Shown here piece by piece: positions 5,711 to 63,548 of a stretch of DNA of 64,000 bases; the stretch's first letter is position 1, and each line of letters opens with the position of its first letter. The notes under the pieces are model-generated. The model was not told the DNA's origin, searched no databases, and saw only the letters and a program-made list of their open reading frames with translations. A program made the translations under genes and the position numbers. The stretch is taken from NCBI GenBank assembly GCA_001972305.1, contig BDDD01002254.1:1-64000 (forward strand), given 5' to 3'. The DNA is from Cephalotus follicularis (taxonomy: Eukaryota; Streptophyta; Magnoliopsida; Oxalidales; Cephalotaceae).

Positions 5711-5837
5711 CCGTTGACGCCTAACGCCGTACCGTCGACGCTTTCAGCCCAAACACGTGTACAAAACACGCAGTTGAAGGCTGAGTTATGACGCACAAAG
5801 CATTGATGCCAGAGAGAAACCGTCGACGCTTTGAACG
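5711..5837 (+). repeat. TCGA palindrome cluster, slot 1, J 3' LTR
   Basis: Three copies of an RCCGTCGACGCTTT-like word (one decayed to GTTGACGC) lie 105-230 bp after the LTR start. The core GTCGAC is palindromic. Confidence 0.8.
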
Positions 5838-6760
5838 GTGTCAGAATTGTGATACACTCCTATTAGAGCAGGACAGTGGTGCCAAATGGTTTCCATGCGA
5901 GCTAAGTGTCCTGCGATGTGTCAACCATGCAAGGAGACATTACTAGCTGTTGACAATGCCAGACTGAGGAGCCTTGCATGTGATCTGCAACCTGCAATCA
6001 AAACAGAAAAGTGAGAAAGAACAAATTAATGAATGCATGCATGAGGGAGAGAGAAATGTGCAATGAAGGCTGGGAAAACTGACGAAATTAAAGACACGAA
6101 TTTGTGCCTTAAATCAGCTGAACCATGAACTGATTGAGTGTTAGAAAACACTGAGAAATAGAGAGACAATTTGGACAATTGCTGGAGGATTGCTAGAGGT
6201 TGAAGGAGCCTAAAGTTCAAAAGGGGAAACTTGGAACATCACCTGGAATTGGTAAGTAACCCGAGTTTTCCTTGACATAGTTAAGGTTGTTAGTGATGTA
6301 GCATACTGATGTTAGCTTTACATATCCATTGTTAACAAACAATTATGGAGTAACCCTGGAACTAGAGATTTGATGGGTATAAATTGTAAAAGAGAATTTT
6401 GAAGCTTAGAAGCTAATGATAAGCTATGGTTCAAGTTATAAGTTGTTACCAGGATTTAATAACAAGATAAACTTACTGGTATTAATGTATAAACTTGTCA
6501 ACATGCAATTGTTAGGCTAATTTCTGCAAAATGGAAGATTGAAAGGAGGGTGAAGAACATTGGACATAAAGAGAGAAATCAATTCAATTTGATTTTGGGA
6601 TTGCTTTTAAGGTAAGGGTTTTGACATGTTTTTGAACATATAACATGTATAATGTGTAGTAATGCTTAATATTTGATTGCATGTGGAAATAGAATGAGAT
6701 TGAATTGATTATATGCATCCCCTGTTTTGATATTGCTCCTGGAAATTGTTAAGAACGCCA

Positions 6761-6914
6761 GAAGCGCCGACGCTTAGGTTTAGACAGTCGACGCTTTGGT
6801 GCGAAAAGGGCATGTTAAGGCTTAGAATGTCGACGCTTACGCTTTCATCATGCATCCATTGTCAACGCTTAGTCAACAACCGTCGATGCTTAAATAGAAA
6901 CTGTCGACGCTTTA
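6761..6914 (+). repeat. TCGA palindrome cluster, slot 2, J 3' LTR
   Basis: About six copies of GTCGACGCTT and one-base variants (GTCAACGCTT, GTCGATGCTT, GCCGACGCTT) are spaced irregularly by 20-45 bp, about 1.15-1.31 kb after the LTR start and after the donor-like sites. Confidence 0.85.
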
Positions 6915-7599
6915 GGACAGTAAGTGTAGAAATGTTTAAATTGATTGATTGAATTGATTGTAATTGTAAATATCCTTGCACTGCTATATTGTAGCTGTGA
7001 TTACTGTTTATTAATGAAATTACTGTTGTTATGTACAAATCTCAAGGATTTTACGAACTTAATGCTTTGAGCATAAATAATGATTTTAACAACGAACTTC
7101 ACAAAGAAAATCTTATTGTATACAATTTCTATATTCCTCTACAAGAGGTACTGTATCGTTTTGTTCTCCAAGAGAACCACTAACTGAATTGTTATGTTTT
7201 CTAAAAATGAAAACTACTGTTATATTGCATATTATAGATATGTGTAATATTGCCACTGAATTGATTAGATTTATTTTCTATGCTATTGGGGTTAGTCGAG
7301 TGATAGGAGACATCAGTGGCAACGGAGGTGGTCCTATGTGGCAGGAGTTGGCTAGAGTATCCACCCAAAATGTCTGCAATGCAGATCTTGATTGTTGAAC
7401 TACGCGCTAAAGACGGTAGTAACTGACCTGATCTATCATCTTCGGAGTGAAGGGTGATAGATAGGTGGTGCACAGTTGGTGCTAGGAGTTAGCGACCTAT
7501 GACACCCAAATCACTGTACTGATTGATTGTACCCTTGTGCGGTATTCCTGAATTGTATTGTCTATGGCCACTTGGCACGATTGCTTATATATTGAAATA

Positions 7600-7602
7600 C
7601 TA

Positions 7603-7643
<41 letters not shown>
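7600..7643. repeat. TA microsatellite inside J 3' LTR
   Basis: A nearly pure TA run. The matching position in the 5' LTR (about 430-442) has only a few TA units, so the run grew after insertion. Confidence 0.9.
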
Positions 7644-7645
<2 letters not shown>

Positions 7646-7712
7646 TTATTTCAAATAAACCATCATGCATATTTACAATTATATATTCAATTATCATGCA
7701 TTAATCTCCTAC

Positions 7713-7737
7713 TTAGCCAAGTGAGGACAACGGTTAA
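7713..7737 (+). promoter_or_regulatory. LTR stem-loop 1 (J, 3' copy)
   Basis: TTAGCC pairs with GGTTAA across a 13-nt loop; the one non-Watson-Crick position would be a G-U pair in RNA. It lies directly upstream of the acceptor-like TTTCAG at 7748-7753. Confidence 0.6.
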
Positions 7738-7913
7738 CCCCCTACAATTTCAGATTAAGCGAAGACGTACAGGAAGTGCTGTTGAAGCTTTTGGAGAGTT
7801 GTTGTTTCTGCTAAGGTTGTTATCCTTATGTTTGTTTTGTAATGAACGATTCGCACTCCGTTGTTGTTGTTTACTTTTTTGTATGTAAAAGGGTAATTGT
7901 TGGTACTGTATAA

Positions 7914-7935
7914 GCACGTAGTATGGGCTGCGTGC
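7914..7935 (+). promoter_or_regulatory. LTR stem-loop 2 (J, 3' copy)
   Basis: GCACG/CGTGC stem around a TAGTATGG-containing loop, about 145 bp before the LTR end. Confidence 0.6.
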
Positions 7936-8076
7936 GGATAGTTTTATAATCCGGCATATGGAATGCTTCCGCTTAAGTTATTTGATTTGTTGTTTGAGAA
8001 TGCTGGATTATTATTTTATTTCTGATATCACCATATTTGTTTGTGTTTAATGAAATTGGAATAACGGGGTGTGACA

Positions 8077-9819: not shown

Positions 9820-11641
9820 CTTGATATGATGCAAACATAGGTTGAAGGCACATTTTAGGGATTAGGTTAGTAAAATGACTAACTTTGATTTTTATGTCAA
9901 AGCATTCCAACCCTTGGGAATAATTCACAAGACCTAAACTCATAAACGTGTATCAACCTCCAAGGCTCTCTAATTAAGGTACCAACTAAACAATAACATG
10001 AGAAACATGTAAGGGTTTGGACAAAGAAAGAAAGAGGGGAGAATCATCACCTTGGAATGAAGACTCCTTCCTTCAAGATCCCTGTACACTTTGTCAAAGT
10101 TGAATCAACAAGAAAATCCTCCTTGAATCCGTGAGCTCCTTTCTTCAAATGCTCTATTCACTCCCACTCAAAACACTATAATATAAACTAAGATCAAAAT
10201 AGGAGGTGCTAACCTTCAATACAAAGACTATCACCAGCTATATTGATCAAGAGAAAGGAGGAGATTAGAAAAGATCTCTCATAAAAGTTCAAAATTTTTC
10301 CTCTCTTGGCTTTTCTTCTTCACCCTTTGGTTTCTCCAGGAAGACCAAAACCTGTTATGCCTTGCCTAACTTTAGATGAATTGAAGAATAGAGTTATGTG
10401 TGTGTGAGAGCATGTGTGATGATGTTCAATTTCGGATCCCATGTAATACCCTGTTCGTTCGTAAATATTTTTTTTCGGATTCGTAAATATTTTTTTTTAC
10501 GGATTCGTAAATGTTTTTACGAATATTATATTTGTGTTTTCGGGCTTTTAATTTTGTTTAATTTTTAAGTCCGATTGCCCAATGATCGGGTTTATGTGAA
10601 TTGTGCGGTATGATACCGGTCCGATATTTGGGTATGTTATGCTATGTTGGGTTTTATAAATTCTTATTTTAATCCAAAATTATTTTATTAAAAACAAATT
10701 ATTATTCTTTTAGTTTAATATTCATTATTTTTCCTTTTCATTATTAATTCATTTTGTTATTATTTCTTTTTCTTTTCTTTTTCCTATTTTATCATTTTCT
10801 ACCATTTTCACCTACTACCTTCCACCACCATTCTTCTTTCCAGCAGATTTCTCCTCCCACCATCTGCAAAAATCATGTTAGAATCTCTCTTTTTCATTTC
10901 ATAATCCATAAAAGTCTCATTCCATTTCCCTTTGTCAAATCTTGTCTCCCATTTCTTCATATTTGAGTGCCATTGCCATTTTTATATGATGCCACCATCC
11001 CTATTGCAAACAAATCCGGAATTGCTTTGTTTGTGTGAACAAATCTGCTGTGTGAAGCATTCATCCAATTCCATGCGGTAATCTCAATCCTTTAATTATT
11101 TCCTTGGATTGAATTCTCTTAAATTGTTATGTATGTCTAAAAATACCATGGTTTTGTATCCTTCTTTCTTGTTTCTGTTCACAGCTGAATTGTGTGTTGA
11201 ACTACTGTTTTCTGGGTTCATTAACATCATTAAAGGTTAGTTAATTCATCCCCTTTGATTATAGTTTTGTTTCAATGGCTTACTTTGAGTTTTTGTGCTC
11301 TTAGTATCTTGGAGTCTTTGATTCTTGCCTAAACATGTTGTCAATGTATTAGTGATGTTATCTACACGTTTTATGCACCTATATATGTCACAAATTGAGT
11401 TCATAACTTCTGCTATCAATTAGAAACAGAAATCTAGGCATGTTCATGCAATGTCTTCTTACTTCCTCTTCCAAATAAAATCATTAAATGGTCGTTTCTT
11501 TGTCAAATTGATGTTTGTAAATCACCTACAAGTCATATATAATCATATGTTTATGTCCATATGTCTTTGGTTTAATGTAGAAATCATTAAAATCATTTTC
11601 AGTAGCAAATCGTCGAATTTCAGAATGTTCTGCTGCCCAGA

Positions 11642-11808
11642 ACAGCCGACTGTCTGAGTGGACAGCCGACTGGAATGGGTGGCCAGCCGACTGGACTGAA
11701 GAACACAGTCGACTACCTGCATTTTTGGGTTTTTTAGTCGACTGTCACCTGATCCAGTCGACTGCCCAGACAATCCAGTCGACTGGATCCCTATTCCAGG
11801 CGACTGGT
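11642..11808 (+). repeat. CAGTCGACTG-type palindrome cluster in H
   Basis: About eight copies of CAGTCGACTG and variants (CAGCCGACTG, CAGGCGACTG) lie within 170 bp, about 1.2-1.37 kb after the LTR start, i.e. slot 2. No slot-1 cluster is visible in H. Confidence 0.88.
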
Positions 11809-12359
11809 ATGCCCTGGAATGTGCTGTTTTCACCCGTTTTGATTCGTTTGACCCCCGAATCGATCCGAATCTCTTCCAAACTTTTTTGTGAGTCTATTTA
11901 ATGCTTCTAATGTGTTTTAAACTCTTATACACATGATTTTGAATGTATTTATAGATTGTTGAATTTCAAGTGGATTTCGTTTAAAATTGCCTATTCGTAA
12001 GTACTTTGCAAGCGCATAAGGTACGGATTTTCTGTTCCTTGGCTATCTGACCTTCAAACTGAAACTGTTTTGATAAACATATTCATTTATGAAATCAATG
12101 ATGTTTTATGATCTTGATATGTTTCAAATTTAAGTTGGTTTGACATTTTATTGATTCCAACTTTATCTTTACGATATGTTATGATACGATATGATAGGAT
12201 ACGATATGTTAAGATATGACCAGTTTTTGAAACTGTTGTGACCAGTTTTTGAATATGTTATGAGAAAAACATATTTATGTGATTTTAATTTGATTTTGAT
12301 AAATCAATTATTTTAATTTAAATACTGAGTATTGTACCCACCTATGGGGCGTATCCATA

Positions 12360-12391
12360 GGCACGTCGTGGGCCTGGCACGGGGACGTGCC
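12360..12391 (+). promoter_or_regulatory. GC-rich 8-bp stem-loop in H
   Basis: GGCACGTC and GACGTGCC pair perfectly around a 16-nt loop. The loop core GCCTGGCAC is kept in the LTRs of B (near 26080 and 33510), where the stem is imperfect. Confidence 0.6.
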
Positions 12392-12898
12392 ACTTCCGTA
12401 GTAGTGTGATTTGACTACGGCGTCTCTGAGTGTATGAACGAATCCCATGAGGTGGATTTGTGGATCCGCTATGTGATAGAGGCGTATGAATCGATTCTAG
12501 TTTATGTGATCTGAGGTGAATTCAGATATGTGGTCCGAAGTGTGATCGGACATATGTGTATGAGAATTGACATGTGTAGTGCCGTACACTTCAATTCTAG
12601 TGGGCATGTGGAATTAGCTCCTCCCTTGCCAAATTTATGATATGTGATATGAATATGGCTCAGTATGTTTTAAACAATTATGATTTCGATGTTTCGTAAT
12701 TGTTTCGAAAGATATGCAAATGTTTTACGAACTACGGTTTATAGCGTTTTAAATTATTTCGTAATTGTTTCGAAAGATATGAATATGATTTAATTGTTTT
12801 ATCTGTTTACGATTTCAGTTACGTTATTATTGAAATATTAACGTTTTTAAATTACCGTTTACTGTTTTATTTCCCTTATTCGTACTGAGGTTTGCTCA

Positions 12899-12923
12899 GC
12901 CGCGTTTTTGTTTTCCATGCGGC
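12899..12923 (+). promoter_or_regulatory. LTR stem-loop 1 (H)
   Basis: GCCGC and GCGGC pair around a T-rich loop, followed at once by an acceptor-like GGCAGG. It sits 350 bp from the LTR end, equivalent to the TTAGCC/GGCTAA stem-loop of other LTRs. Confidence 0.6.
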
Positions 12924-13211
12924 AGGTTTTCAGGAGCAGCGGGGGAAAGTGTGATTGAGTGATGACCACCTCTTATGATAGGAACCCTAGGATGCGATCC
13001 TTATGTTTTATGTTTATTGGTCAAACGTTGATTATTATGTTTCATGTTTTAAATTGGAACCTTATTATGTTTTGATTTTTTTTTTCCGCAACCACTTAAT
13101 ATGTTAAATGTTAAGTTTTAAATGTTTTCGTATGACTGCCACGTTTTCGGCTGTCTTTGGCTATTAAAAGTAAACCCTGTGATTTATTAAGTTATGTTAT
13201 ATATGATATGA

Positions 13212-13263
13212 CCCTGTGACGACTCCCGCCGTCCGGGCCCTGTGACGACTCCCGCCGTCCGGG
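13212..13263 (+). repeat. 26-bp tandem duplication at the end of H
   Basis: Two exact copies (13212-13237, 13238-13263) of a unit starting CCCTGTGACGACTCCC lie just inside the LTR terminus. Confidence 0.95.
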
Positions 13264-13631
13264 GGTGTTACATCCCACCTCCCCCAAAGGTGTCACCCAA
13301 AACTCCATGTGCTAAGCCCATCATTACTCACACAAAAATATCTCATTTAATCTTTGTTTAATCACTTCCTTTATTTGCATTACAAGTGTTACCATAAGAG
13401 CTTGCCAAGTGTCATACAAAGAAGCATGAAACAAAGTAGCTTCTCCAAGAAACTTTCCTCCATCAAGTGACACATGCCGTGCATATGTTACTTGTCCAAA
13501 AATTAGGCGGGACCCGATTGCCTGGATTGAAATATGGTAAAGACGATAAGTGTCCAGAATTCTCTCAAGATTCCGTTTACTCATTTCAATTAGTCACCCG
13601 ACCATCAAAATGAACCTAGATCAACATATCA

Positions 13632-14756: not shown

Positions 14757-15991
14757 TGAAGGGTCCGCAAAAGGCAACCAAGAAGGGGGTGAATTGGTTA
14801 TGCAAAAAAATAACCACCCTTTTTAAAGATTAAAAAAGCAATAATGATAAAAACAAAGAAGTTACTCTAAACAGTAAATTAAATAGCAAATAAAGTAAAG
14901 AGTAAGAGATAGAGAAATGCAAACGAGGTTATAGTGGTTCGGCAAACCGTGCCTACGTCCACTCTCACAAGCCGCGCTTGAGCCCGATCACAAACAGCGA
15001 CTCTGGAATTTTACAAGCTGAATCCTAACTCGGATTTTTACGAGCTAAATCCTAACTCGGATTTTCAAAAGATAAATCCTAACTTTGGGTAAGGTACTAA
15101 TGACCTTGGGTATACAATGGATTTCTGAGTGTTTGTAATGTTTAAAAACCTCTCAAAATGTTGAATAACAAAAATAGTAATTGTTCAAAGGATCTCATAA
15201 AAGAACTTTGTAAACTATAGCTCAAAACTATTCTTTCTTGCTCTTGCATAACTTGGATATTTCTTGTGTGAGTAGTTGATTATTTCTTCATGATCTGGGC
15301 CTCTGTTTATAGCTTTCAGATGAATATTACCGTTGCTAGAGTCCAGGAATCGTCAGAGAGCCATTTGAATCAAGTATGGAAAGTCTTCACCATTTCAGTA
15401 CTTTCAAATTTTTCAGATTTCATGTCTGGCGGTCATTGGTGTTGACGTGTACGCATGGCGTTGATGTCTATCTCCTTATGCATTAACTCCTGTGGCTTTC
15501 TGCATTGCTACTTCAAGCCCTTGTTCATCTTCAGTTCTATTTACATTGACGGGCATCCATGGCGTTAACATATAGACACAAGATGTTGACGCTATAATGT
15601 ATGTCCTTTAACGTCTAAACTCACTGTCCGAAATGTGCACCATTTGCGTTGACGTCTTGATATGGCATTGACGTCTATAGGCAAGGTGTTGACTCCACTT
15701 GTTTTCAGCGTTAAGATGAAGTTGACGTCTTTCCTCATGACGTTGATGTAAATCATAAGTTTCTCGGCATGTTGACGCGGATAAAGATCACGTTGACGAG
15801 GATCATCTTTCAAATCCCATAACATGTACTTATTCCTAGTACGTTGACGTCTAAAACTTAGTCGTTGACGCCAAAAAGACTTATCTGCAAGTTTTAGCTT
15901 TCTTACATTGCGAGTTAACATTGTTAGAGATTACTTCACATCAAACACATAGATTAGGTATTTTTTAATCATCAAAACAAAGATTGTAACA
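14757..15991 (-). repeat. Element L 5' LTR, Ty1/copia-like
   Basis: It starts TGAAGGGTCC beside the primer site; the end ...ATTGTAACA at 15991 is my best guess. It shares the block TATAGTGGTTCGGCAAACCG and CCTACGTCCACTC (14931-14964) with the LTR of F at 60632-60662, and an ATCATCAAAA block near the end, so L and F belong to related families. On the minus strand a TATA-like GCTATAAACA lies near 15320. Confidence 0.55.
15426..15872 (-). repeat. GTTGACGTC-type array in L
   Basis: About a dozen GTTGACGTC, GTTGATGTC and ATTGACG words lie in 450 bp, directly upstream of the likely TATA box on the minus strand. The core looks like GTCGAC with one CpG transition. Confidence 0.75.
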
Positions 15992-17459: not shown

Positions 17460-17602
17460 TGTCACACCCCGCTTTCCAATTTAAGACAACATATAAAGAG
17501 GTAAGGCAATCAACACAGTATAATCCAGCTCATACAAAATTACCAATAAATAAAAACCTTCAATAGCGGAAGCAATAACGTAAATGAGCCGAAATTAACA
17601 TA

Positions 17603-17628
17603 CATCACGCATCCCATACTACGTGATG
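17603..17628 (-). promoter_or_regulatory. LTR stem-loop 2 (I)
   Basis: CATCACG and CGTGATG form a perfect 7-bp stem around a loop with CCCATACTA. Confidence 0.65.
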
Positions 17629-17885
17629 CCCAACAAGTTTATAAATGATACCCACGTCATTGTCGATGGCCCAAAACGGAGCGTGATAAATACAGTACGA
17701 GATAAATTAAATATCCTTTGTTACAATAATCCAATAACATAACCCATGTTCATTAATCCAACTTACCAAAATCATTGTTTAGTAATCCAATACATAAGAT
17801 AGAAGAAACAACTCAGTCTTCTCCTTTAAAACTCCTTGCATGCTCCATATCAAAATCCACTCCATCAATATGTTACAGTAGGGGA

Positions 17886-17910
17886 TTAGCCTTTGTCCTC
17901 ACTCGGCTAA
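17886..17910 (-). promoter_or_regulatory. LTR stem-loop 1 (I)
   Basis: TTAGCC/GGCTAA perfect 6-bp stem with a 13-nt loop, 425 bp from the 3' end of the LTR. Confidence 0.65.
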
Positions 17911-18823
17911 GTGAATAACTTATAAACACAGTTTAGGTAAGATGATAATGAGTATCATGAATGAATGCATTATGATGCAGTATGACATGAAGTTTTCATA
18001 GGAATATATCTCCGTATATACATGTATAAAAAAATATGCATGCTCACAGTACAAGTATAACTCATAAGTTATCCCAACACAGGCAGTAAATATGTTCCAA
18101 AAGGAACCAGACAGTCTAGTTGTCCTGATCGTCGCCACCTCCTGGCCCCAATGTCAAGCACTATTACCCCATCCCCGTTTGCGAACGGTTTTGGAGCAAG
18201 TCCTTCGTAAGTTGCTTAGCACGATGGCTAAACCAACAGCAGGTTACTAGCACAGCGGCTGAGTAATCAACAAGTTATTAGGACAGCGGCTAATAATCAA
18301 CAGGCACAAGCATCTCACAATACAAGTCAAGCAATAAAATATAATTACTTGATCAAATATATTTGTTTAAAATATATTACTCCGTTCACAAGTTGTGATA
18401 AGTTATAAAACTTAAAACAATACATTTGATTGGGTAACCAATCCTTTAGAACATTTCTCCGTCTTTGGGAATACTTCCATACTCATTTCGAAAATATATA
18501 AAATCGTATGTTGACAAATATATATTTTCGCATAATACATTGATTGCATAATCAATCCTTTAAACATTTATCAGTCATTGGAAAATACTTTCCCGATCAT
18601 CTCGAAAATATATAAAATCATATGTTGACAAATATACATTGTCGTACAAAATGATTATAATAAACATACAAGCTTTTCAAAATGGTTAACACTTTTTAGA
18701 AATCAACCATAATCCAAATCACAGTAATAATGCAAAGATATGCTTAGAATGCATCTAAGATCGTTACTAGAGTCGCTTCGGGTCTAGCGGGTCCCATTCG
18801 AGTGAAATTCCATTGAACAGGAC

Positions 18824-18951
18824 CATAGACGTCGATGTCTATCCCTAAAGCGTCGACGTCTTTACCCTAATGCGTCGATCCTATGTTCACTTAATCCCAT
18901 GCGTATTTGGATCAAAGACGTCGATGTCTTTCCAAAGACGTCGATGTCTTT
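18824..18951 (-). repeat. TCGA palindrome cluster, slot 2b, LTR I
   Basis: About five copies of AGACGTCGATGTCT-like words, including two adjacent copies of CAAAGACGTCGATGTCTTT. Confidence 0.88.
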
Positions 18952-19165
18952 ATGATTCCAGGAAGAATCAGTTCGCGAATCTTGATTCTGGAGGGTAGAA
19001 TCTGGCCTTTTAATCCTTCATGGAAGCGAATCTCAATTTCTCATCGTATAAGGCATGCTACTGGTTAACAGGGAACATAACCAGAACATCGTTTCATGCA
19101 TAAAACATGTAATCCCAAGGGCAGTTCACCAACATCAGTAAACACTACTGTGCTACAATACCCAG

Positions 19166-19322
19166 AAAAGGCGTCGATGTCTTTCACATCCACACAAGTA
19201 GGTATAACATTACTGTTACATAAAGCCTAGAAAAGGAATCGATGTCTTTACTCAAGCATCGATGTCTTTCACGTTTTCACACAAAGGCATCGACGTCTTC
19301 CTGTAGACGTCGATGTCTATCC
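19166..19322 (-). repeat. TCGA palindrome cluster, slot 2a, LTR I
   Basis: About five copies of GGCGTCGATGTCTTT and near variants, 1.07-1.23 kb after the LTR start. Confidence 0.88.
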
Positions 19323-20065
19323 TACCCAGAACGTTTTCTCCACAGTTTTAACACACCAAGCCATTATCAAATCCATCCTTTACACAACCAATTCACATAT
19401 TCATGTAATCACGCATACATGGTTAACTCCTTATATCACAGTGACACCACAACAAGTCCAGAATCACAATTCAACCATTAACGTGCAACTCATCATGTTA
19501 TTCATTAACTTAAAACCCAAAATGCATGTATAAGAATCATCACTTTCCCCTACCTTGCTGTTCCAAGTTAGGAACTGGAAAGTCCACCCCTTTGGGTTCC
19601 CAGGTTCTGGCCACAGCAGCTCCAAGATCCTCTTAGCAACTGCTACCCACGAGCTCCAAGTCTTTAGCTCCAATAGCTCAACAATGGTGGCCCTCACACT
19701 CACTGGTTTTCTTTCCTTTCTTTCCTTTAGTGTTTTAACGAGAGAGAGAGGAAGGAGGTGGTGTTTTATTATGGCAGGAACCCTCCCCTTTTCTCTTTGC
19801 TTCACAGATAACCACACACTCTCGTGCTCCCCTTCTCCCTCTCTTGTTTTTTTTTGGCTCATTTCCCTTCCTTTCTGCAGGTTGTAGGTGTAAGTGGGAT
19901 ATCCTTTTGCATGCACCATGTCATGGACTCGTTTGGGGCATGCCTGGAAACACACCAGCATGATGAACACGTTGCAATGTGCATGTTAAGGCGTCTGGGT
20001 GATGCCTCAAAGATCACCCATTGCATGTTACTCTGTCAGGGTATAACGTGACAGATGTTCTTTAC

Positions 20066-20222
20066 AAAGGCGTCGACGTCTTTCCTTAGACGTCGATGTC
20101 TTTCCCCTTTTTGTAAGAACGTGTCGATGCCTTCTCTCCATGTCGACGTGCATGCCCATGCATTCACATGTACCTTGGTTCCAATTGGCGTCGACGTCTT
20201 TCCAAAGACATCGACGCGTTTC
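20066..20222 (-). repeat. TCGA palindrome cluster, slot 1, LTR I
   Basis: About six copies of CGTCGACGTCTTTCC / AGACGTCGATGTCTTT words, 170-325 bp after the LTR start and upstream of the likely TATA box. Confidence 0.88.
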
Positions 20223-20921
20223 TTCCAAAACTACGCCGTTTTCAAGTTTAACTCACATAATTCTTTCCCCAAACAATATTTAGGGTTTGTAAGCATCTTT
20301 GAGGTTGAAATCTCAAACATTTTCATTAATTAAAATTTAAGATTGCATCTTAAATCAAAATATTACAATCATGAAAATACCGGGCGTTACAGCTTTATGC
20401 TTGTAAATAAACACTCTTTATTTATAACATTCTTAGTTCCATTCATGTTCAATGTGCATATTAAATTCAAAATTGCATTTGCTATATGTGTAATCTCAAC
20501 CGTAATTATGGAATCAGAATAATTAACACATTAACTAAATACACATATAGCGCCCTGTAGAACAAGGGTTGGATCTCAAGCATGGGTGGTTATGAGTATG
20601 ACATTGTAACACGTGGCATTACTCTCTATCTAATAACAATACAATGGTCGGGACTAGCAATATAAAAATGCGAAAAAACTTAAAACTTTACAATACATAT
20701 CATGAAGTGGAAGATACAATGCAACAATCCATGTTTACAGTACAGTACAAATGTTTTACAATACACTTATCAACTCTTCAATACAGTACCAGTAAGAACT
20801 CTGTCATATCCACACAAACCCCTCGGTTAATAGCGTCTTCAATCCTTCGGTCCACTGCTACCTACCGCCCTACCTATGCCGCACATAAATGTAAAACACA
20901 GCCCCACCCCAAAGGATGTGG

Positions 20922-21815: not shown

Positions 21816-22150
21816 GGCGTCATTGTCCTTGGTGAAAGACGTCGACGCATCTGTAAAACGATGGAAAGATGTCAAAGTCTTTGAAAGACATCGATGTCTT
21901 TCTCTATTTGTGTAGATATCTGGCAGAAAGTCGTCGATGTCCTTGAAGAAAGACGTCGACGCGTTTCAATAAAAATAGGCTGGGAATACGCATCGATGTT
22001 TTACATCGATGTCTTTCATGGGGAAAAACATCTCGAGGCAAAGATGTCGATGTCTCTCAAAGACGTCGATGTATTTGCTGCGGAATCACAGATACATCAC
22101 TTTGAAGAGAAAGACATCGACGTCATGGGCTAGGGGTCGATGTCTTTACT
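21816..22150 (-). repeat. TCGA palindrome cluster in A 3' LTR
   Basis: About a dozen AAAGACRTCGAYGTCTTT-like words in 335 bp, 0.70-1.04 kb after the LTR start and downstream of the donor-like site (slot 2). No slot-1 cluster is seen. Confidence 0.88.
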
Positions 22151-44095: not shown

Positions 44096-44241
44096 TGTCA
44101 CCCCCCGTTTAAAGAGAAATGACATTTAAGCAGTAAGGGCAATTAACACATAAGTACAGCTCATGTAAAAACCATAGAATTTAAACTTTAAACCAGGAAT
44201 CAGTTACGGAAGCATAAAATATCCATAAACTGTAAAACCCT

Positions 44242-44267
44242 TAGCGTGTATCCCATACTACATGCTA
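44242..44267 (-). promoter_or_regulatory. LTR stem-loop 2 (K)
   Basis: TAGCGTG pairs with CATGCTA, six Watson-Crick pairs plus one wobble-type pair, around TATCCCATACTA. The stem differs at several positions from that in I and C, while the loop is kept. Confidence 0.62.
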
Positions 44268-44490
44268 CCCAACAATTCCAACATTGTTGATCGCCCACAA
44301 ACAGAGCGTGATCCACAGTACAAGTTTAAATCCATCACAAGTTACATCCATAAGAACGATACATCAGAAACCCCTTAATAATTCAGTTTATTACACAACA
44401 GGAGAATAGTAAAACTAAGAACAACATAATACTTGCTCTTCGTCCATGCCGATCCAACAGGTCCACTGCATCAATCTGTAAAGTAGGGGG

Positions 44491-44515
44491 TTAGCCTTTG
44501 TCCTCACTCGGCTAA
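44491..44515 (-). promoter_or_regulatory. LTR stem-loop 1 (K)
   Basis: TTAGCC/GGCTAA stem, followed on the minus strand by acceptor-like TTTACAGATTG. Confidence 0.65.
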
Positions 44516-45373
44516 GTCATAAAAGTAGTTCGGGATTAAAATTAAATGCATGTCATGATATGGATGCATGGATGATGCAGTACAGTAGAAATTCCAGTTT
44601 ATATATATATACAAAAATATATATATTTAACAGTACGGTAAAATATCACTGGGTACATATATAAGAAAATATATGTATGCAGAAACAGTACAGTAGTAAC
44701 TCGGCCAGGGCTACATCAACAAGCACAGTAATTTTCGAGAAGGACCAACAGGCAGTACAGGATGTCCACATATGACCACAACAACAGGCAGTATGTGTAA
44801 CGCCGCCAACTCCTGGCCCCAGGCTACACTCCAACTCTGGTCCCTACTTCAGGCAACCGAGCGAGGCAACAGTATAGTGAGTTACCCAGCCATACTCCTG
44901 GACCCTAGGTCAACCCTACCACTAACTGGCGCTGGCAGCCTCCGCCATGCAACTAGTGGCTCAAGCACAAACACATAACAATTCATAGAGCAAGCAGTGA
45001 ATTCAAGCAGTAACAGTACGGTAAACGGGACAGTAGTGATCGTTTAGATCCACAACAGGCAGGTTATTTTCAAAATGTTTCAAAAGTGACAACATTTGAA
45101 ATATTGCATTTTCAGTAGAAAATACTTTTTAAACAGTTCCAGTAGCGGAAATCGCTTTCCAAAGACGTTTGAAAAATACGATATAAATATTCGTTTGTAC
45201 TCAAAATAGCAGTCTCAACTCACATATGCATTTCTAAAGTAACAACACATTAGAAATCATAAATTGAGTAAAAACAGGCAGTAAACAGTACATATGCAAT
45301 GCATACAAATGCTCAAATGCATCCTAGCAGGAACCGGGATCGTTTCGCATCATTTTAGGCAAACAGCAGTCCA

Positions 45374-45633
45374 ACCAGTCGACTGAAATCCTTACCAGTT
45401 GACTGTTCTGGGTCGAGCAGTATCAGTAGTCGACTGGTTCCTTCTACCAGTCGACTGTCCATTAGGCAGTCGGCTGTTGTTCTTCAACAGTCGACTGTTA
45501 CAATGCACCTACACGAGAACATTCCCAGATTACCATTCTCTGGGCAGTACGAAGTATGAACAATCAACTACTTTCCATTTGCAGTCGACTGGTCTCATTG
45601 AGCAGTCGAGTGTCTTCCCTCGACAGTCGGTTG
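45374..45633 (-). repeat. CAGTCGACTG-type cluster, slot 2, K
   Basis: About nine copies of CAGTCGACTG and one-base variants, 1.13-1.39 kb after the LTR start. Confidence 0.88.
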
Positions 45634-46440
45634 CTCTGCAAACCAGTGGCATGCAAATTGATCTAACTACTCCAATGGATCATGGTAAGCAGATAACTTA
45701 AGCTCAGGGACATGAAATACAACTACAGGTTGTCATATCATCCATATAACAGTTTATCCAACATTCATTTCGTCATGCAAGCCAAAGCCATATAAGGTTC
45801 AACGTGCATGCACAGTAATCACATTGATTCTCAGTAGCAAGCATAACAGCTCCCAAAACAATAGCAAATACGACCTAAATCAGTAGCTACAAGTCACATA
45901 ACCAGGCATTTCAAATCATAGAGCACGTCGTAATTTTAAGCTCAAAATACCACTACAACTTCCCCTACCTTTGATTCCAAGTTAGGAATCTGTAAGTCCA
46001 CCTCTTTGCGTTCCAATCAGTGACGTTCGGAGCTCTTCGGAAGCTCCAACTCCAAGCCCAGCAGCTCCAAGGATAGCTCCCACCTTGAGCTCCAAGCTCC
46101 AACAATGGAAAACACTCTCCTTTCTCTTTTCTCTATGTTTTCTCTATTATTTTCTCTGGTTCTCAAACTTTTCAGTGCTAGTACGAAAGAGATGAGTGAA
46201 GACGTTTTTATGCAGAGTCTTTTCTCCCTTTCCCCCTTCACATGGAACCAAAGCCACATTCCCTCATTCACATGCATGCACACACTCACAGGTCTGATCT
46301 TCTCTGTCCCATGAGGTTTGCATGATTCCCATGTGTCCCTTACATCCCTTCCTTTGGCTGCATGAAGCACAGGTGGCATCTACTTCCAATGTCAGTTGTA
46401 ACATGTGATTTCTGTCACATGCAACAAACAGAGCATGATC

Positions 46441-46592
46441 CAGTCGATTGCCTTCCCCTGGCAGTCAGCTGTTCGCCTGGCAGTCTATTGCCAAGTGTCA
46501 CGACAGTTGGCCAGTCGACTGGTTCATCCTATCAGTCGACTGCCCCCATATGCATCCATCCAGTAGGCTGGTCCTCCATACCAGTCGACTGC
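46441..46592 (-). repeat. CAGTCGACTG-type cluster, slot 1, K
   Basis: About seven copies (CCAGTCGACTGG exact at 46511-46522), 175-325 bp after the LTR start. Confidence 0.88.
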
Positions 46593-46766
46593 CTCCAGTA
46601 TGATTACCAAGTAATCACACTTCAAGAATATAATTGATTAAAATCAACATCACCATAATTTGGGAAAACATCATCAAATTCGGAAAAATCCATTATTTTA
46701 TTAATTCCACAAATATGGTACAATTACATTGTGAAATTACAGTATATGAAAATCACGGGCGTTACA

Positions 46767-51165: not shown

Positions 51166-51719
51166 AAAAGGCGTCAACGCCTTTCCTCAACGCGTCGATG
51201 CTTATTTTTCAAAAATGTCGAGGGTTATTTCCAATGTAAGTGCTTGTAGCAGTATGAAATGCGTGGATGTTTTTCTGTAAGCGTCGATGCCTACAAGCCA
51301 AAACCCTTGGGTGTCGAAGTTCATCTCAACGCGTCGACGCTTAAGGTAGGAACCTTAACACGTCCTCGCGTTTTGCGTTAGACCTAATACACAGCAACCG
51401 AAGACGTCGATGCCTTCCATAGACGTCGATGTTTAAGTGGTACCAGAAGGTATCACCTCGTCCAATCTCCATTCCAAGGAAGAATTCATCCTCCATCCAC
51501 TCATGCAATTCCAGATACATTACTTACGGTGTAACATGTACAATAGGTTATTCATATGTATAACTAGATCATCGACCCATCAACAATCCATAAAGTGCAA
51601 AAGCAAACATTGCAGTCTGCAATTTGAGAAGGACGTCGACGTCTTATTTTAAGCATCGATGTCAATTGCCTCATCGCATAAAGACGTCGATGTTTACCCC
51701 GTAAGCATCGACGTTTAAG
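51166..51719 (-). repeat. TCGA palindrome clusters, slot 2, D
   Basis: About thirteen words in two groups (51166-51436 and 51630-51719). GCGTCGACGC and GACGTCGATGTC types are mixed within one LTR. Confidence 0.85.
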
Positions 51720-52000: not shown

Positions 52001-54151
52001 TTGAAGAAATGCCAAATTCTGCAGAAAACAGGGCAAAGAAGTCGACTCCTTTCAAGAAGAAGTCGATGTCTTTTCTGGGTACACAATAAAGTCGACTCCT
52101 TTCAAGAACAAGTCGATGTCTTTTCTGGAAAATGCAACAATCTTCAAGGAGCTATGAAAAAGAAGTCGATGTCTTTCCAAAAGGATCTTCTTTTAGAGTG
52201 TCCTCATCGTGGTTTAAACACGTGGCATTTATGCCAAATCATCTACGAAGGGATCGAATACCAGACCAAGCAATTGGTCGAATCTATGTGTCCTGATGGG
52301 TTCACCTCGTACACTGATGAAAATGATGCATGGAATTTCCTTTTAGATATGGGTGAGCGAACTAGAGAGTGGGAGTCAGCTCAAGTTTCCGAGAGAGCAT
52401 TACCAAACAAAGGGTACGGTATAGACGGAGCAGTTGCGCTCGAGGCACAGTTAGATAGCCGCCTCGAGAGAATAGAGTCGTTGCTTAGGGATTCCACACA
52501 AGTCAATCAAATCAATCAAAGTACCCCTATGTGTTCTTGGTGTCAGTCCCCATACCATGTTTTCGAAGAATGCCAAAAATATATTGACAGCCAATATACT
52601 CATGAGAATGTGTCCGCAATGAACCAATACAACCCGTATAGTAACACTTACAATCCGGGTTGGCGAAATCATCCAAACTTCTCATGGAGTCAAGGGCAAA
52701 ACATGCGAGGACAATCTAGCTTTTCGGGGCAGCCTTCAAGCATTGGTGCACCACCTTCACACTTTTGGGGACAACCTTCGAACTTTTCTAGCCAGTGTGC
52801 TCCACAACAGACATATCAAAGGTTTTCCCCGAATTCAAACAATGTCCAACCATCCTTCCCACAAAATCAATTCCAAAATCAACAATCACCTGGATTGTTG
52901 AACCAAGGGGAAAATACATCTAGGATTTCGTCATTAGAAAAGGGCATGGAACTTTTTATGAGCACTATGATGACTAGTCAGCATAACCTTGAAAACCAAA
53001 TCTCTCAGTTGGCATCTGCGGTACATACAAGAGAAAAAGGGAAGATGCCTTCCCAACCCGAACCGAATCCTAGGACGAATATGATTCAGCCCGATCGTAT
53101 CCAACCGCAATCTAATCCGCAATGCTCATATTCTTCCGGACCTTCCGATCAAGCATTTGTCTTGCGAAGTGGAAATGAGTACCAACCTGCGGATAAAACT
53201 GAAAAGTCGAGCGAGGAGTTGGTTGAGACATTTGTACATGAAGAAGCAAAAGAACAGTTGGTTGACCCCTTTGCGCAACCAACAAATTTAGATGTGTAAG
53301 AAGAAGTTAGTGAAAAGAAAGAAGAAGAGGAAAAGGAACAATTAATGGAAATACCCAAGCGTTCATTTGATCTCCCAGCTCCTTTTCCGAAGAGATTAGA
53401 GAAAAATAAGAAATCCCCAGCAATGGAAAAGATCATCAATACATTCAAACAAGTTCAAATCAATATCCCATTGCTTGAAGCTATCGAGCAGGTGCCCTCT
53501 TACGGAAAAGTCCTTAAAGACTTATGCACTAAAAAGAGGATCCTTCAGACTCCGAAAAAGGTTTTCTTGGCAGCCAACGTTAGTGCATTATTTTTGCAAA
53601 CCACGATGCGAAAGTATAAAGATCCTGGCTGCCCGACAATCTCTTGTGTTATTGGTAACACCAAAATCGATCATGCCTTGCTCGATTTAGGAGCAAGTGT
53701 GAATTTGTTACCTTCAGAAGTTTTTGAGCAACTAGGTTTAGGAGAGTTGCTCCCGACCACCACAAAATTGCAATTAGCTGATAGGTCGGTAAAAGTACCA
53801 AGAGGAAAAATTGAGGATGTTTTGATAAAGGTTGGTGAGTTTTTCTTTCCTGTCGACTTCGTCGTATTAGATACCCAGCCTGTTGTGAACATAAAAGACC
53901 AAATCCCAGTTATCCTTGGTAGACCATTCTTGGCCACAAGTAATGCATTGATCAATTGCCGAAATGGTCTCATGAAGTTGAGTTTTGGAAAATCGTCGAT
54001 GGACTTTAACATCTTTCGTTTGGGAAAGCATCAATCTGACTTTGATGATGTCTACATGATTCGCTCGATTCCTGATACCACTGATTCGTATTTTAATATC
54101 GACTTTGATCGCAATTTCAAGAGGGAATTCGAGATTGAGGAAGTTAAGTGA
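52001..54151 (+). pseudogene. Element E gag (C-terminal part) and protease
   Basis: One frame with a TAA at 53297-53299 and a TGA at 54149-54151. The gag segment ECPHRGLNTWHLCQIIYEGI and DENDAWNFLLDMGERTREWE matches only the end of the capsid domain of Athila-like gag; the larger N-terminal part is missing and replaced by a lysine-rich leader. A zinc-knuckle-like CSWCQSPYHVFEEC starts near 52530, then a Gln/Asn/Ser/Pro-rich linker. The protease lies near 53680 with ALLDLGASVNLLP and LQLADRSVKVPRG, ending near VILGRPFLATSNALINC. DLG is normal for this protease subgroup. Confidence 0.78.
52036..52179 (+). repeat. TCGA palindromes inside E coding leader
   Basis: Five GTCGACTCCTTT / GTCGATGTCTTT words. 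Two pairs form a direct repeat with an exact 50-bp period (52041-52078, 52091-52128). They are translated as part of the E leader. Confidence 0.88.
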
Positions 54152-56034: not shown

Positions 56035-56168
56035 AAACGTCGATGTCTTTTCCTCTTTCATACAAGGGTTTCGATGCCTTAGTCTGCATTGACATGCATG
56101 TACATGCATTTACGTGCACTATTTGTTCCCATACGCGTCGACGCCTTCCAAGGACATCGACGTGTTTA
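56035..56168 (-). repeat. TCGA palindrome cluster, slot 1, D
   Basis: Four words (ACGTCGATGTCTTTTCC, TTTCGATGCC, GCGTCGACGCC, GACATCGACGTG), 200-335 bp after the LTR start. Confidence 0.82.
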
Positions 56169-56460: not shown

Positions 56461-56776
56461 TAGGCGTCGATGTCCTTGGTGAAAGACATCAACGCATCTG
56501 TAAAACGGTGGCAAGACGTCGATGTCTTTGAAAGACATCGATGTCTTTCTCTATTTGTGTGGAAATCTGGCCAAAAGACATTGATGTCCTTGAAGAAAGA
56601 CGTCAACGCGTTTCAATAAAAATAGTCTAGGAATACGCATCAATGTTTGGCTCCGATGTCTTTCCTGGGGAAAAAAATTCTCGAGGCAAAGACGTCGATG
56701 TCTTTCAAAGACATCGATGTCTTTGATGCGGAATCACAGATACAACACTCTAAAGCAAAAGACATCGACGTCCATG
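56461..56776 (-). repeat. TCGA palindrome cluster in A 5' LTR
   Basis: Counterpart of 21816-22150 in the partner LTR. About ten words, with independent CpG changes (for example GACATCAACG for GACGTCGACG). Confidence 0.88.
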
Positions 56777-58554: not shown

Positions 58555-58820
58555 AAAGCGTCGACGTTTTCTCCTTAAGCGTCGCTGGTCACGGGCTTGA
58601 CCTGAGTTTTTCACTTCTATCCCGACTAAAGCACTGATGCTTTCTTACAAAGCGTCACCACTTTAAGTCTTCATCCAGGTCAACATACACACTTGACTTC
58701 AACGCTTCGACGTTTAAAATTAGAGCGTCGTCCGTTGCCCAAAGCGTCGACTCTTTCAATAAAACCGTCGACGCTTTAGAAAATTTTGTCAACTCTTAGC
58801 CTTTTAGATCGACGCTTTCC
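58555..58820 (-). repeat. TCGA palindrome cluster, slot 1, G
   Basis: About nine words of the AAAGCGTCGACGTTT / GTCGACGCTTT type, some decayed, 235-500 bp after the LTR start. Confidence 0.82.
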
Positions 58821-60482: not shown

Positions 60483-61489
60483 TGTAGGAAGTCTAGAGGG
60501 GGTGGGCTGGGTGAATAGACTTATAAAAATTAATCTAGCAAATATACCACCAATTAAATAAATTGCTCAAACACAAACACACAATTGCGGAAATATAAAG
60601 AGTGTAGGGTTTAGAAAATGCAAACGGATGTATAGTGGTTCGGCAAACCGCCTACGTCCACTCCCCAAGGCCTCCCCTTGAGTATTCACTAGTATGCCCC
60701 AATCCGGGCTTGGAACTCCAACCGAGCTCCAACAAACTTTCGCTCCAACCAAGCGAAATACAATTTGCTCCAACCGAGCAATACAAGAGACAACCTCTCT
60801 TGTATGGATGAAAATAAAGGTTTAAGAGTTTACAAATTCGTAGAGAATTTGTTTTACAATGAAGTACAACTTTGAACAAAGCTTAGTGTATGTAGAAGGT
60901 AAAGTGTAAAGCTTTGTGAATGTGTAGATTGCTTTGGATTTGATCTCTTTTGATTCTTTGAATGCTTTGTATTGAGGTTGAGATAGCTTGAGATTGTATG
61001 GCACTTGAATGCTTGATTGATCCTCTAAGAGTTCCAAATTACCTTAAATAGGTAAGCCTCCAACGGATCTATTTTTAACTTTCATTAACAAAACCAGTCG
61101 GCTGGATTTGGACGGCAGCTGGCTGGATTAATGGCGCGTTTATTTGAATATAGCCGTTGGGAGTGGGCAGTCGGCTGGAGTGTGTAGGCAGTCGGCTGGA
61201 GTGTACGGCAGTCGGCTGATCCCCTGCTTCAGTCGGCCGATGAGGCTGAATGTGGAAGTTGCAAACTTTCTGTAACAGTCGGCTGGATCCTGGGCAGCCG
61301 GCTGGACCTCATTCCAGTCGGCTGGAATTGCTTGTACCTGCATACACAGCCTTGGCACAACTTTGGACACAAGATTAAGTGAGTAAGTGCATTTATAACT
61401 CAAAGAATTTATGCATACAAGTAATTTACGTTTGTTAATCATCAAAATAACATGTGGAAAACATTTAATCGGGGTGGCAAAGGCCAACA
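60483..61489 (-). repeat. Element F 3' LTR (1007 bp)
   Basis: Complete. It shares the GGTTCGGCAAACCG...CCTACGTCCACTC block with L. TATA-like TATTTAAGG on the minus strand near 61045, just after the palindrome array in transcription sense. Confidence 0.88.
61093..61326 (-). repeat. CAGTCGGCTGG array, F 3' LTR
   Basis: About nine copies of CAGTCGGCTGGA and variants, 165-400 bp after the LTR start, upstream of the TATA-like site. Confidence 0.9.
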
Positions 61490-61503
61490 ATCTCCCCCTT
61501 TTT
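61490..61503 (-). promoter_or_regulatory. Polypurine tract of F
   Basis: AAAAAGGGGGAGAT on the minus strand, directly before TGTTGGCC. Confidence 0.88.
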
Positions 61504-62170
61504 GATGATTGACAAAACATGCATATTTTGCATAAAACTTGTCAAATTTTTACTCATTTTGTTTCAAAGTCCAAATTTGCCAATGAAGGCATAATCAATG
61601 CATTTTATATATCAAACTATACTTGCTCAATGCAAGATTACAAGCCAACTTTATCAATATGCAATATTTTTCAATAAATTCCCATATATTCCTAAATGCA
61701 TTTATTTATGCAACATATAACAATATCTCTCCATCTCTCCCCATACTCTCGCCCCCATATATATATCTCTCCCCATACTCTCTCAAAATGTGCATATCCA
61801 TATAAATCTCTCCCCCTTTTTGTCAAACAACAAAAAGAAGGGTGGAAGCTCCCCCTCAATCATAGCATGGATTGAAGAGCTCCCCCTCAAATTATGCAAT
61901 AGGATAGTAAGCACAAGGAAGCTTGAACCACACAATGTATTTGACCAAGATAAAACTTGAACCACAAGTCAAAGCAATAGCATGAACATATTGTAATTTC
62001 ATACATAAAGCGTTTAAACACAAAGGCATAGTCATTGCATAAAACTTTAGCCAATACAACTTGTCTGTTACAAAGCTTCATTATTACAAACTTAAAGTTC
62101 GAAAACATTACTCAAAGACAAACCAAAAGCAAAGTTCCAAAATACAAAAACATGATGATGCAATGTAAGC
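61504..62170 (-). other. Element F 3' non-coding interior
   Basis: No coding content recognised. It contains repeated CTCTCCCC words on the + strand (61730-61870), i.e. purine-rich blocks in the transcript. Confidence 0.6.
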
Positions 62171-62867
62171 TCAAGATGGAGGAGGGTGCTGTGGGAAAGC
62201 GGTGTGAAGATACTGAAGAATGTCCGCTTGCCCCTGTCGAATATCGGCCTGTCCTTGACGAAGGTTTGCTTGCTCCTCACGAAACTGCCGCAATTCACCT
62301 TTGACAAACTCCATGTCAGCTTGGGCAACATCCATTCTTGCCATAAGTGCATCAAGGGTAGGTCTGCTGCTGCTACCACTGCTAGAACCAACATTCGGAC
62401 GCATCTCAAACTGTTGAGGATCGTCCTCCTCCTCATCATCATCATCATCACCTCCCATATTTTCTTGCTCTCTAACCGGCTCTCTAGCTCTTTCTCTCAT
62501 CTTCACCCACTCACCATCCTCAAACACAATCCCACAATGTCTAAGGCCAGCCTTGTTCACAAAATGTCTATAGGAAGGTTTGATACTTTGCTCATCTTCC
62601 GGAAAGTCTATATTTAGTGAGGCAAGGACAAAAGAAAGTATCCTACTAATAAGCATAGGATAGTGACAATGACTCGGTCTTGACAGGAAGGTGATTGACA
62701 AGGAGATAGGGTAGGTTAATATGAGTTCCGTTTTTGACACAAGCGACGAATTTAAGATCGCGCTCGGAGGGGAGTGTGTGTGAACCTACTTTAGGAAGAA
62801 ACGAGTTTGTAACAAGGAGTAGAATGATCCTAGAGGTAATGGGTAAATGACCACTAGTCACATTCAT
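62171..62867 (-). pseudogene. Putative plant transposon protein (PF20167-like), frameshifted
   Basis: Two overlapping frames join near 62680. The first part (VTSGHLPITSRIILLLVTN, LKFVACVKNGTHINLPYLL) and the second (PMLISRILSFVLASLNIDF, LRHCGIVFEDGEW) resemble the 'putative plant transposon protein' domain that often accompanies non-autonomous LTR elements. It is followed by an acidic run of Asp/Glu and a coiled-coil-like tail with repeated RQGQADI units (62171-62400). The N-terminus is cut by the deletion at about 62916. The function of this family is not established. Confidence 0.65.
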
Positions 62868-62916
62868 AATCGGATTGACATTTGGTTGTTCAAGGCATAT
62901 TTCTAGGGCCTCCCTT

Positions 62917-63548
62917 AAAGCTTAGTGTATGTAGAAGGTAAAGTGTAAAGCTTTGTGAATGTGTAGATTGCTTTGGATTTGATCTCTTTTGATTCTTTGA
63001 ATGCTTTGTATTAAGGTTGAGATAGCTTGAGATTGTATGGCACTTGAATGCTTGATTGATCCTTTAAGAGTTCCAAATTTCCTTAAATAGGTAAGCCTCC
63101 AATGGATCTATTTTTAACTGTCATTAACAAAACCAGTCGGCTGGATTTGGACGGCAGCTGGCTGGATTAATGGCGCGTTTATTTGAATATAGCTGTTGGG
63201 AGTGGGCAGTCAGCTGGAGTGTGTAGGCAGTCGGCTGGAGTGTACGGCAGTCGGCTGATCCCCTGCTTCAGTCGGCTGATGAGGTTGAATGTGGAAGTTG
63301 CAAACTTTCTGTAACAGTCGGCTGGATCTTGGGCAGCCGGCTGGACCTCATTCCAGTCGGCTGGAATTGCCTCCAGTCGGCTGGAATTGCCTGTACCTGC
63401 ATACACAGCCTTGGCACAACTTTGGACACAAGATTAAGTGAGTAAGTGCATTTATAACTCAAAGAATTTATGCATACAAGTAATTTACGTTTGTTAATCA
63501 TCAAAATAACATGTGGAAAACATTTAATCGGGGTGGCAAAGGCCAACA
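62917..63548 (-). repeat. Element F 5' LTR (truncated, 632 bp)
   Basis: It matches 60878-61489. The missing 395 bp are the LTR 3' part; the break has AAAG in common on both sides. Confidence 0.9.
63131..63387 (-). repeat. CAGTCGGCTGG array, F 5' LTR
   Basis: As in the 3' LTR, plus one extra unit: a 20-bp tandem duplication (63353-63372 and 63373-63392) absent at 61313-61336. Confidence 0.92.

Follow-up and report, generated by a model that had tools for sequence, protein, structure and literature searches.

The question raised by this locus is why retrotransposons of different superfamilies carry the same short, nearly mirror-symmetric words in their long terminal repeats (LTRs). The locus, called the window below, is a 64,000-nucleotide stretch of Cephalotus follicularis DNA (positions 1 to 64,000 of contig BDDD01002254.1, C2254:1-64000), and genome counts refer to the assembly of 1.577 Gb in 9,746 contigs. 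The window is a nest of LTR retrotransposons. An earlier reading of its letters, here the original prediction, had proposed that clusters of near-palindromes around TCGA form a transferable cis element common to Ty3 and Ty1-like LTRs. We find three classes of word, A (AAAGACRTCGAYGTCTTT), B (AAASCGTCGACGSTTT) and C (CCAGYCGRCTGG), and a fourth, D (RACGTCAACGYC), which occurs in other genome stretches and at 15.56-15.87 kb of the window. Judged from sequence, it is rather probable that the words are sites for a sequence-specific, presumably dimeric activator and that their arrays are promoter-proximal and first-intron enhancers of LTR retrotransposons.

The elements of the window are referred to by short names. 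Reading frames of J, 2b, 3 and 4 match families for gag, protease, reverse transcriptase (RT), RNase H and integrase or SH3/chromodomain of the Ty3 kind. From this type and from the LTR ends TGTAACACCC...GGGTGTGACA, we take these four to be Tekay chromoviruses. F, 2a, 6 and 7 are solo Tekay-like LTRs, LTR 5 holds a gag-protease insertion named E, and L is a small element with copia-type ends.

TCGA stands out as a palindromic centre even when no consensus word is used. Across the window, with 16 palindromic centres compared, 5 or more of the 6 outer pairs match at 26 of 246 TCGA sites; other centres bearing G or C reach at most 1.5%, and the AT-only centres ATAT and TATA reach 6.6% and 9.2%. 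TCGA sites with at least 4 of 6 outer pairs matched are concentrated in LTRs (50/145 inside, 9/101 outside; Fisher p 2e-6). A log-odds scan with the consensus words A-C gave 116 matches in 31,758 bp of LTR DNA against a mean of 1.4 in 20 shuffles, a count in which elements 3, 4 and L contribute both of their LTRs and two doubtful matches come from the end of LTR F. The same scan gave 6 matches in 32,029 bp of non-LTR DNA (shuffles 3.35), four of them in the leader of E. The density comparison that had been set beforehand is therefore far from equal, and the clusters are real and stronger than the original prediction claimed. Its figure of at least ten LTRs also holds, with 4 to 13 words in each of ten LTR families (13 copies). 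The partial LTR copies at 1-873 and 33875-34454 had no words in the A-C scan.

The enrichment extends across the genome. In eight 10-kb stretches chosen by contig number and not by content (one is mostly N), TCGA is again the most palindromic centre (14/220; next TATA, 13/496), and 85 words were found against 6 in reversed sequence. Genome-wide, class A occurs at 51,413 forward places (187 in reversed controls), class B at 6,087 (11) and class C at 7,225 (38). Dyads of the form AAAGAC-N6-GTCTTT number 59,091, and four RTCGAY cores account for 51,413 of them (87%). Thirty copia RT loci (111 kb) held one A-C word; with class D added and a lower threshold, they gave 12 words against 42 in reversed sequence. 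The exact class A word was found at seven places in IMG/VR (L001-L007), where a rough chance estimate gives about two, and a tblastn search of that database with the RT of 2b found no relatives.

All the words are near-palindromes with class-specific arms and an oriented core, mostly RYCGAC in classes A-C and GTCAAC in class D. Read in the sense direction, the right half hardly departs from CGAC, and it is the left half that varies. Class A cores (n=38) include ATCGAC (20), GTCGAC (7), GTCGAT (4) and ATCGAT (3), and the commonest class C cores (n=30) are GCCGAC (11) and GTCGAC (10). Contrary to the proposed TCGA centre, the words of L are mostly CCGA-centred. Neighbouring words tend to be paired at a set distance: 42 of 75 adjacent spacings (17 clusters in ten LTRs) measure 19-22 bp, where the null has a mean of 6.4 and a maximum of 17 in 5,000 trials, and in the genome stretches 35 of 78 measure 20-22 bp. 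Such pairs span two helical turns and could hold two dimers side by side.

In Tekay LTRs the arrays occupy two slots, 110-495 and 716-1582 bp from the LTR start (two doubtful F matches excluded). This agrees with the two slots first described, except that F and 3 have no words in slot 1 and 6 has none in slot 2. Slot 2 had been placed downstream of a splice-donor-like site. An AGGTARG block of this kind, conserved among 2a, 2b, 7 and 5 (19545-19600, 41498-41544, 45960-46014 and 55486-55543), does precede slot 2 in those four LTRs, as AGGTAAG does in J; F, 4 and 6 lack such a donor, and the one in 3 comes after its words. Slot 1 had likewise been placed upstream of TATA-like sites, and a match after it is clear in L, 4 and J, but in 3 the match precedes the words. 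The words of L lie at 170-410 and its TATA-like matches at 439/459; in a related LTR elsewhere in the genome (L047), words extend up to 538 and CTATATAAG stands at 586. Repeated sites upstream of an LTR promoter were therefore found in slot 1, L and L047, the promoter position being unclear in 2a, 2b, 5 and 7.

The same word classes occur in Ty1/copia elements. One genome locus, L050, has a copia gag, a zinc knuckle and a Transposase_32 domain between two class C word pairs 5.8 kb apart, and another, L052, has a copia RT (RVT_2, 4.1e-79) and Transposase_32, enclosed by class A word pairs that lie 6.65 kb from each other. Because the two pairs of each locus have equal inner spacing (496 and 346 bp), we take them, unaligned, as the LTRs of these elements. 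A third set of this kind, made up of class A words and found in L051, flanks a Ty3-type gag with a copia-like polypurine tract. The LTR of L resembles the LTR next to copia coding in L047, and L holds a broken copy of the Transposase_32-type accessory open reading frame (aORF) of L050 (62174..62912, minus strand; two tblastn pieces, 64% and 91% identical), so we place L with that copia family. The broken aORF begins right behind the 5' LTR, as if the stretch from LTR to mid-ORF were missing. The claim of two superfamilies stands, with Ty3 in the window and Ty1/copia through L050 and L052, although the LTR near 11.7 kb is Ty3 if it is the F that had been called Ty1-like (letters were given without coordinates). 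Between the copia gag and the accessory ORF of L050, residues 694-711 of frame 2 gave a weak C2H2 zinc-finger match (PF16588, E 2.9e-4, below cut-off).

Arrays also stand upstream of the aORF itself. This is a new observation, and the class is D, A or C according to aORF clade; the original prediction had confined the arrays to LTRs and the leader of E and had not listed the class D array at 15.56-15.87 kb. The aORF domain is Pfam Transposase_32 (PF20167), with 13,073 first-look candidates in the genome. The first ATG of the ORF in L050 is preceded, at 120-180 bp, by four class C words, and upstream regions of its t50-type clade have class C in 3/3 testable loci (L050, L098 and L100; L098-L100 had been chosen because their LTRs contain class C words, and the sequence of L099 begins within the ORF). 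L052 has class A words at 250-480 bp ahead of the ATG and a TATA-like box in between. Two sets of 20 loci, each consisting of close copies and not of independent events, bear this out. In the t52-type set (drawn from 135 listed relatives of the L052 ORF, to which its members are about 89-94% identical), 19/20 loci reach three or more words in 600 bp, class A for the most part (136 words, 6 in reversed sequence). In the D-type set (spread over 150 listed PF20167 places, DNA not inspected beforehand), three or more words precede the domain within 900 bp in 17/20 loci, and the whole set gives 97 words (2 reversed); apart from a single word, all are class D. The three exceptions are two loci with two words and L070, which has an apparent LTR end at that place. 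Among four loci printed, the D arrays of L066 and L053 end shortly before TATA-like GTATATAATG or CTATATATAG, upstream of the ORF.

Where both are readable, LTR and aORF region carry the same class (C/C in L050, A/A in L052); the t50 and t52 proteins are 21% identical. L042 has class D both upstream of its aORF and 1 kb downstream; in L048 the region upstream of the aORF is masked. Downstream of three D-type ORFs we found 8 and 10 D words (L062, L067), in stretches that are probably 3' LTRs, and none in the third case, L066 (L073). No pol was found upstream of two D-type ORFs. The domain has been reported for an Athila element in sunflower. The excerpts of PMC11728184 describe aORFs of plant LTR retrotransposons, among them an Athila Transposase_32-like ORF and a Tekay 5' aORF; PF20167 is the domain in common with the ORF studied here. 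They report no motif arrays at aORFs, and in Cephalotus the domain sits in elements that carry copia gag or RT. Our literature search on the aORF domain went by domain names, and arrays at aORFs were not searched as such. At L077 (C40:368700-372477), a peroxidase gene fragment (Pfam 2e-16) lies upstream of a Transposase_32 ORF.

We compared the conservation of words with that of the rest of each LTR, judged by circular shifts of the word mask. Between the most alignable families the words are retained better than their surroundings: 86.1% identity against 73.6% outside for 2a-2b (3/373 shifts reach the observed value), 74.0 against 56.5 for 2a-5 (1/381), 74.4 against 56.2 for 2b-5 (0/366) and 75.2 against 45.9 for J-4 (0/306), of which 2a-2b is the only fair footprint and J-4 is possibly inflated, because global alignment of distant LTRs can be drawn to the words. 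When the two LTRs of a single insertion are compared, the words show no clear excess in element 3 (90.1 against 90.3; 180/301 shifts), element 4 (92.1 against 95.3; 345/361) or L (99.3 against 98.2; 28/76). Selection before insertion and decay after it would give such a pattern, with words outlasting their flanks between families and not within insertions.

Word class switches between close relatives. A tree of the last 620 bp of nine LTRs groups F with 4 (96/96) and J, 5, 2a, 2b and 7 together (98/98), and class differs within both groups: F has class C and 4 class B, and 7 has class C where 2a, 2b and 5 have mainly A. An LTR elsewhere in the genome (L045) is 83% identical to LTR 7 over its first 107 bp, but its slot 1 words are class A. 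Class C is found in F and 7, of different LTR groups, and in the copia-type L, so descent of one LTR fails to explain the sharing. Common LTR descent as the sole cause was rejected on the two LTR groups, the copia sharing and the class switch. The original prediction had drawn the same conclusion from LTR surroundings that mostly could not be aligned; the conclusion stands, yet identity between 2a and 2b reaches 74.5%, and 2, 5, 7 and J can be aligned at their ends. The sharing may have arisen by cassette transfer or by convergence, class C linkers being low in information.

We favour activator arrays because the words lie upstream of coding units, some just before TATA, and because of their paired spacing, their retention and the class match within elements. 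In Tekay elements one array would act from U3 (110-495 bp) and the other from 716-1582 bp, behind the donor-like block in several families. In copia-type and other Transposase_32 elements the array in the LTR is repeated upstream of the ORF, in the same class where both are readable, and may there serve an internal promoter. Protein binding and activation are predicted from this layout, and a host factor or a small family of factors would be a somewhat better candidate reader than an element-encoded protein. The first proposal, a cis element for a dimeric protein, is upheld insofar as the words look like dimer sites; its insulator variant is not. Mirror-image words of one kind near the gene switch-on sites of several unrelated element families suggest the same kind of control protein. 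Should the activator reading be right, two superfamilies would be under the same kind of transcriptional control through more than 60,000 exact copies of three 14-18 bp words in a 1.58-Gb genome. The class switch between close relatives would make the route to shared regulation testable (convergence, transfer or use of another element's protein), the abundant Transposase_32 aORF would gain a possible role, and ready-made enhancer arrays could rewire neighbouring host genes.

Several observations weigh against this reading. The J-2b pair shows no significant excess of word conservation (49/334 shifts), and in LTR pairs of different class the words are no better kept than the rest and mostly worse (340/353 shifts for 2a-7, 308/351 for 2b-7, 174/358 for 5-7, 341/353 for 4-F); the alignment effect noted above bears on the other pairs, and the close kinship of the loci in each aORF set bears on their counts. 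Helical phasing is not seen at spacings above 22 bp (mean vector about 0.2, n=30). TATA-like matches are absent between the slots of 2a, 2b, 5 and 7, and the last 200 bp ahead of the start codon lack one in all 20 t52-type loci; a t52-like ORF cut at its 5' end (L046) has no words upstream. In the leader of E, three of the four words point the other way from the usual sense core. Class D, with its core GTCAAC, does not fit RYCGAC, and one factor for all words is unlikely because the classes differ.

A more specific form of the activator reading, and not its opposite, makes the reader an element-encoded protein like VANC: the Transposase_32 aORF protein would bind its own word class in the LTR and before its own ORF, activating or un-silencing the element; the words of Tekay and other ORF-less elements would be captured or convergent, and such elements would rely on the protein in trans. 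We regard this as possible, though somewhat doubtful. The class match in L050 and L052, the D words on both sides of the aORF in L042 and around those of L062 and L067, and the class C words before the aORFs of L098 and L100, which likewise have class C in their LTRs, are all consistent with it, as are the dependence of class on aORF clade (A in 19/20 t52, D in 17/20 D-type, C in 3/3 testable t50) and the abundance of the domain. There are, however, only three clades, whose class match could come from family descent, and L066 lacks D words downstream. Tekay elements have arrays, yet no aORF was seen at the places inspected: in J, 2b, 3 and 4 the integrase-side frame runs up to the LTR, and in J gag begins within 270 bp of the 5' LTR. 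No DNA-binding domain was recognised in the aORF protein, and the best match of the L050 protein to solved structures has E 0.61.

The precedent for such a reader is the VANC/VANDAL system of Arabidopsis, for which the excerpts of PMC5735166 describe dense short words in one orientation in noncoding and intronic transposable-element DNA; the words of an array change together, and their type differs from family to family and shifts by repeat turnover. The window has dense words of one orientation and mainly one class per element (class A, ATCGAC 20 against GTCGAT 4; class C, mostly YCGAC), with E as the exception. The Cephalotus words differ in being near-palindromic, paired at 20 bp and common to Ty3 and Ty1, A and C occurring in Tekay and copia-type elements alike, and their reader is a candidate only. 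A full cis/trans code, in which each aORF clade encodes a DNA-binding activator or anti-silencer with its own word class, present in the element's LTR as well as ahead of the ORF, and ORF-less Tekay and gag-protease elements copied the words of particular clades in a VANC-like arms race with cross-superfamily hijackers, is a tentative extension that we think rather unlikely.

A second specific form of the activator reading makes host CBF/DREB-type AP2/ERF activators the readers, so that the elements would answer to cold, drought or salt; we hold it to be doubtful. GCCGAC is the CRT/DRE core, and many class C words of L contain it. CBF/DREB proteins bind as monomers, however, which explains neither the arms nor the pairing. 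The core of class D, GTCAAC, also speaks against them. RYCGAC, the sense core of 66/92 words of ten LTRs, equals the CBFHV element, but a six-base core is weak evidence and is partly built into the consensus used. That element is listed for dehydration-responsive element binding proteins and also as a CBF/AP2 domain site (excerpts of PMC5892871). In tomato, the available part of PMC6762207 reports a CBF binding domain in the U3 of the Rider LTR, a site type that the RYCGAC-like core would match; it describes no paired-dyad array, and Rider was not cold-induced there.

Neutral tandem repeats of the minisatellite kind, or simple inheritance from a single ancestral LTR, would account for the arrays without any reader, but we consider both improbable. 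Tandem units of 20 bp do occur, the class A linker is often GG, and one class A pair is an exact 20-bp repeat including the linker (18913-18951). For paired class C words, on the other hand, words and spacing are retained although the linkers hold little information (about 0 to 0.6 bit per position). Words are indeed common by descent in 2a and 2b and in the LTR pairs of 3 and 4, and Tekay LTR ends are homologous; nevertheless, words outlast their flanks in 2a-2b and not between LTRs of one insertion, copia and Tekay elements share classes, and LTR 7 and the L045 LTR differ in class despite their similar starts.

Within each class the two arms show no covariation (179, 95 and 107 Watson-Crick cells against 177.7, 97.2 and 104.1 shuffled), and sense A-C mismatches outnumber G-U pairs 67 to 29 over the three classes (10 to 11 in class B). 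On these two grounds a folded RNA is not what is kept, and independent half-sites of a protein dimer fit. Words that act as hairpins or RNA dimerisation sites in the transcript are therefore very improbable, even though oriented-core palindromes could form hexaloop stem-loops and slot 2 and the leader of E would be transcribed: compensatory arm changes are missing, A-C exceeds G-U except in class B, and slot 1 of L lies upstream of its TATA.

The proposal of an undescribed system holds for the words and less so for the kind of array. No report of these words as LTR motifs, or of paired dyads common to Ty3 and Ty1 LTRs, was found in the literature searched, subscription papers being mostly outside it, and the word strings in full text gave no transposon paper by title among the matches listed. 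Regulatory words in plant LTRs and VANC arrays are known kinds. In the available part of PMC5059998, heat-responsive elements of ONSEN and other COPIA LTRs are likewise LTR sites gained repeatedly, the ONSEN site by duplication; there one motif occurs in copia families, whereas here several classes occur in two superfamilies and in regions before an internal ORF.

The array coordinates below rest on the A-C log-odds scan, apart from the class D array, which was mapped separately. Those of J, F and E lie on the plus strand. The 3' LTR of J (5606..8076; repeat pair 1-878/7165-8081 and terminal motifs), with gag, protease, integrase and chromodomain upstream, has three class B words in slot 1 (5716..5825) and four in slot 2 (6769..6906). 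Solo LTR F (10442..13272; target-site duplication (TSD) TCCCA; 66% to LTR 4 over 0.8 kb) has six class C words in slot 2 (11648..11802), and the leader of E has four class A-like words (52044..52168). The class D array of CGTTGACG-type words (15559..15870, no strand assigned) lies outside any annotatable LTR, and Pfam annotation of 8.1-17.5 kb gave no match. The same class precedes Transposase_32 ORFs elsewhere in the genome.

All other arrays are on the minus strand. Solo LTR 2a (17460..20391, minus; 4/5 bases of the target duplication agree) has four class A words in slot 1 (20075..20213) and eight class A and one class B in slot 2 (18834..19312); LTR 2b has four class A and one class B in slot 1 (42036..42175) and five class A in slot 2 (40921..41267). 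Element 3 has nine class A words in its 3' LTR (21844..22139) and ten in its 5' LTR (nine at 56469..56767, the tenth at 59068). Element 4 has class B throughout, with four words in each slot of the 3' LTR (slot 1, 27691..27811; slot 2, 26813..26917) and three in each slot of the 5' LTR (43610..43730; 42721..42804). Solo LTR 7 (44096..46766, minus; TSD ACTAA) has class C, five words in slot 1 (46446..46587) and seven in slot 2 (45381..45587). LTR 5 (49385-56366, TGAAC) mixes classes A and B, with three words in slot 1 (56042..56159) and eight in slot 2 (51176..51689). Solo LTR 6 (56783-59057, minus as inferred from its ends; TSD GCTAG) has four class B words (58563..58770). L (60878-63548) has eight class C words in its 3' LTR (61100..61320), upstream of TATA-like CTATTTAAG, and ten in its 5' LTR (63139..63379).

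Element E (51740-55349) has its gag end and protease in one frame interrupted by stops; an LTR pair was looked for and not found, and its words stand in the leader beside a gag that apparently lacks its N-terminal half. The 3' LTR of element 2b (33875-34454) lacks about the first 2.2 kb of the 5' LTR (39587-42351) and hence all words. The pol region of 2b contains a tandem duplication of about 1.1 kb (35460-36564 / 36560-37664), the two copies being 97.4% identical.

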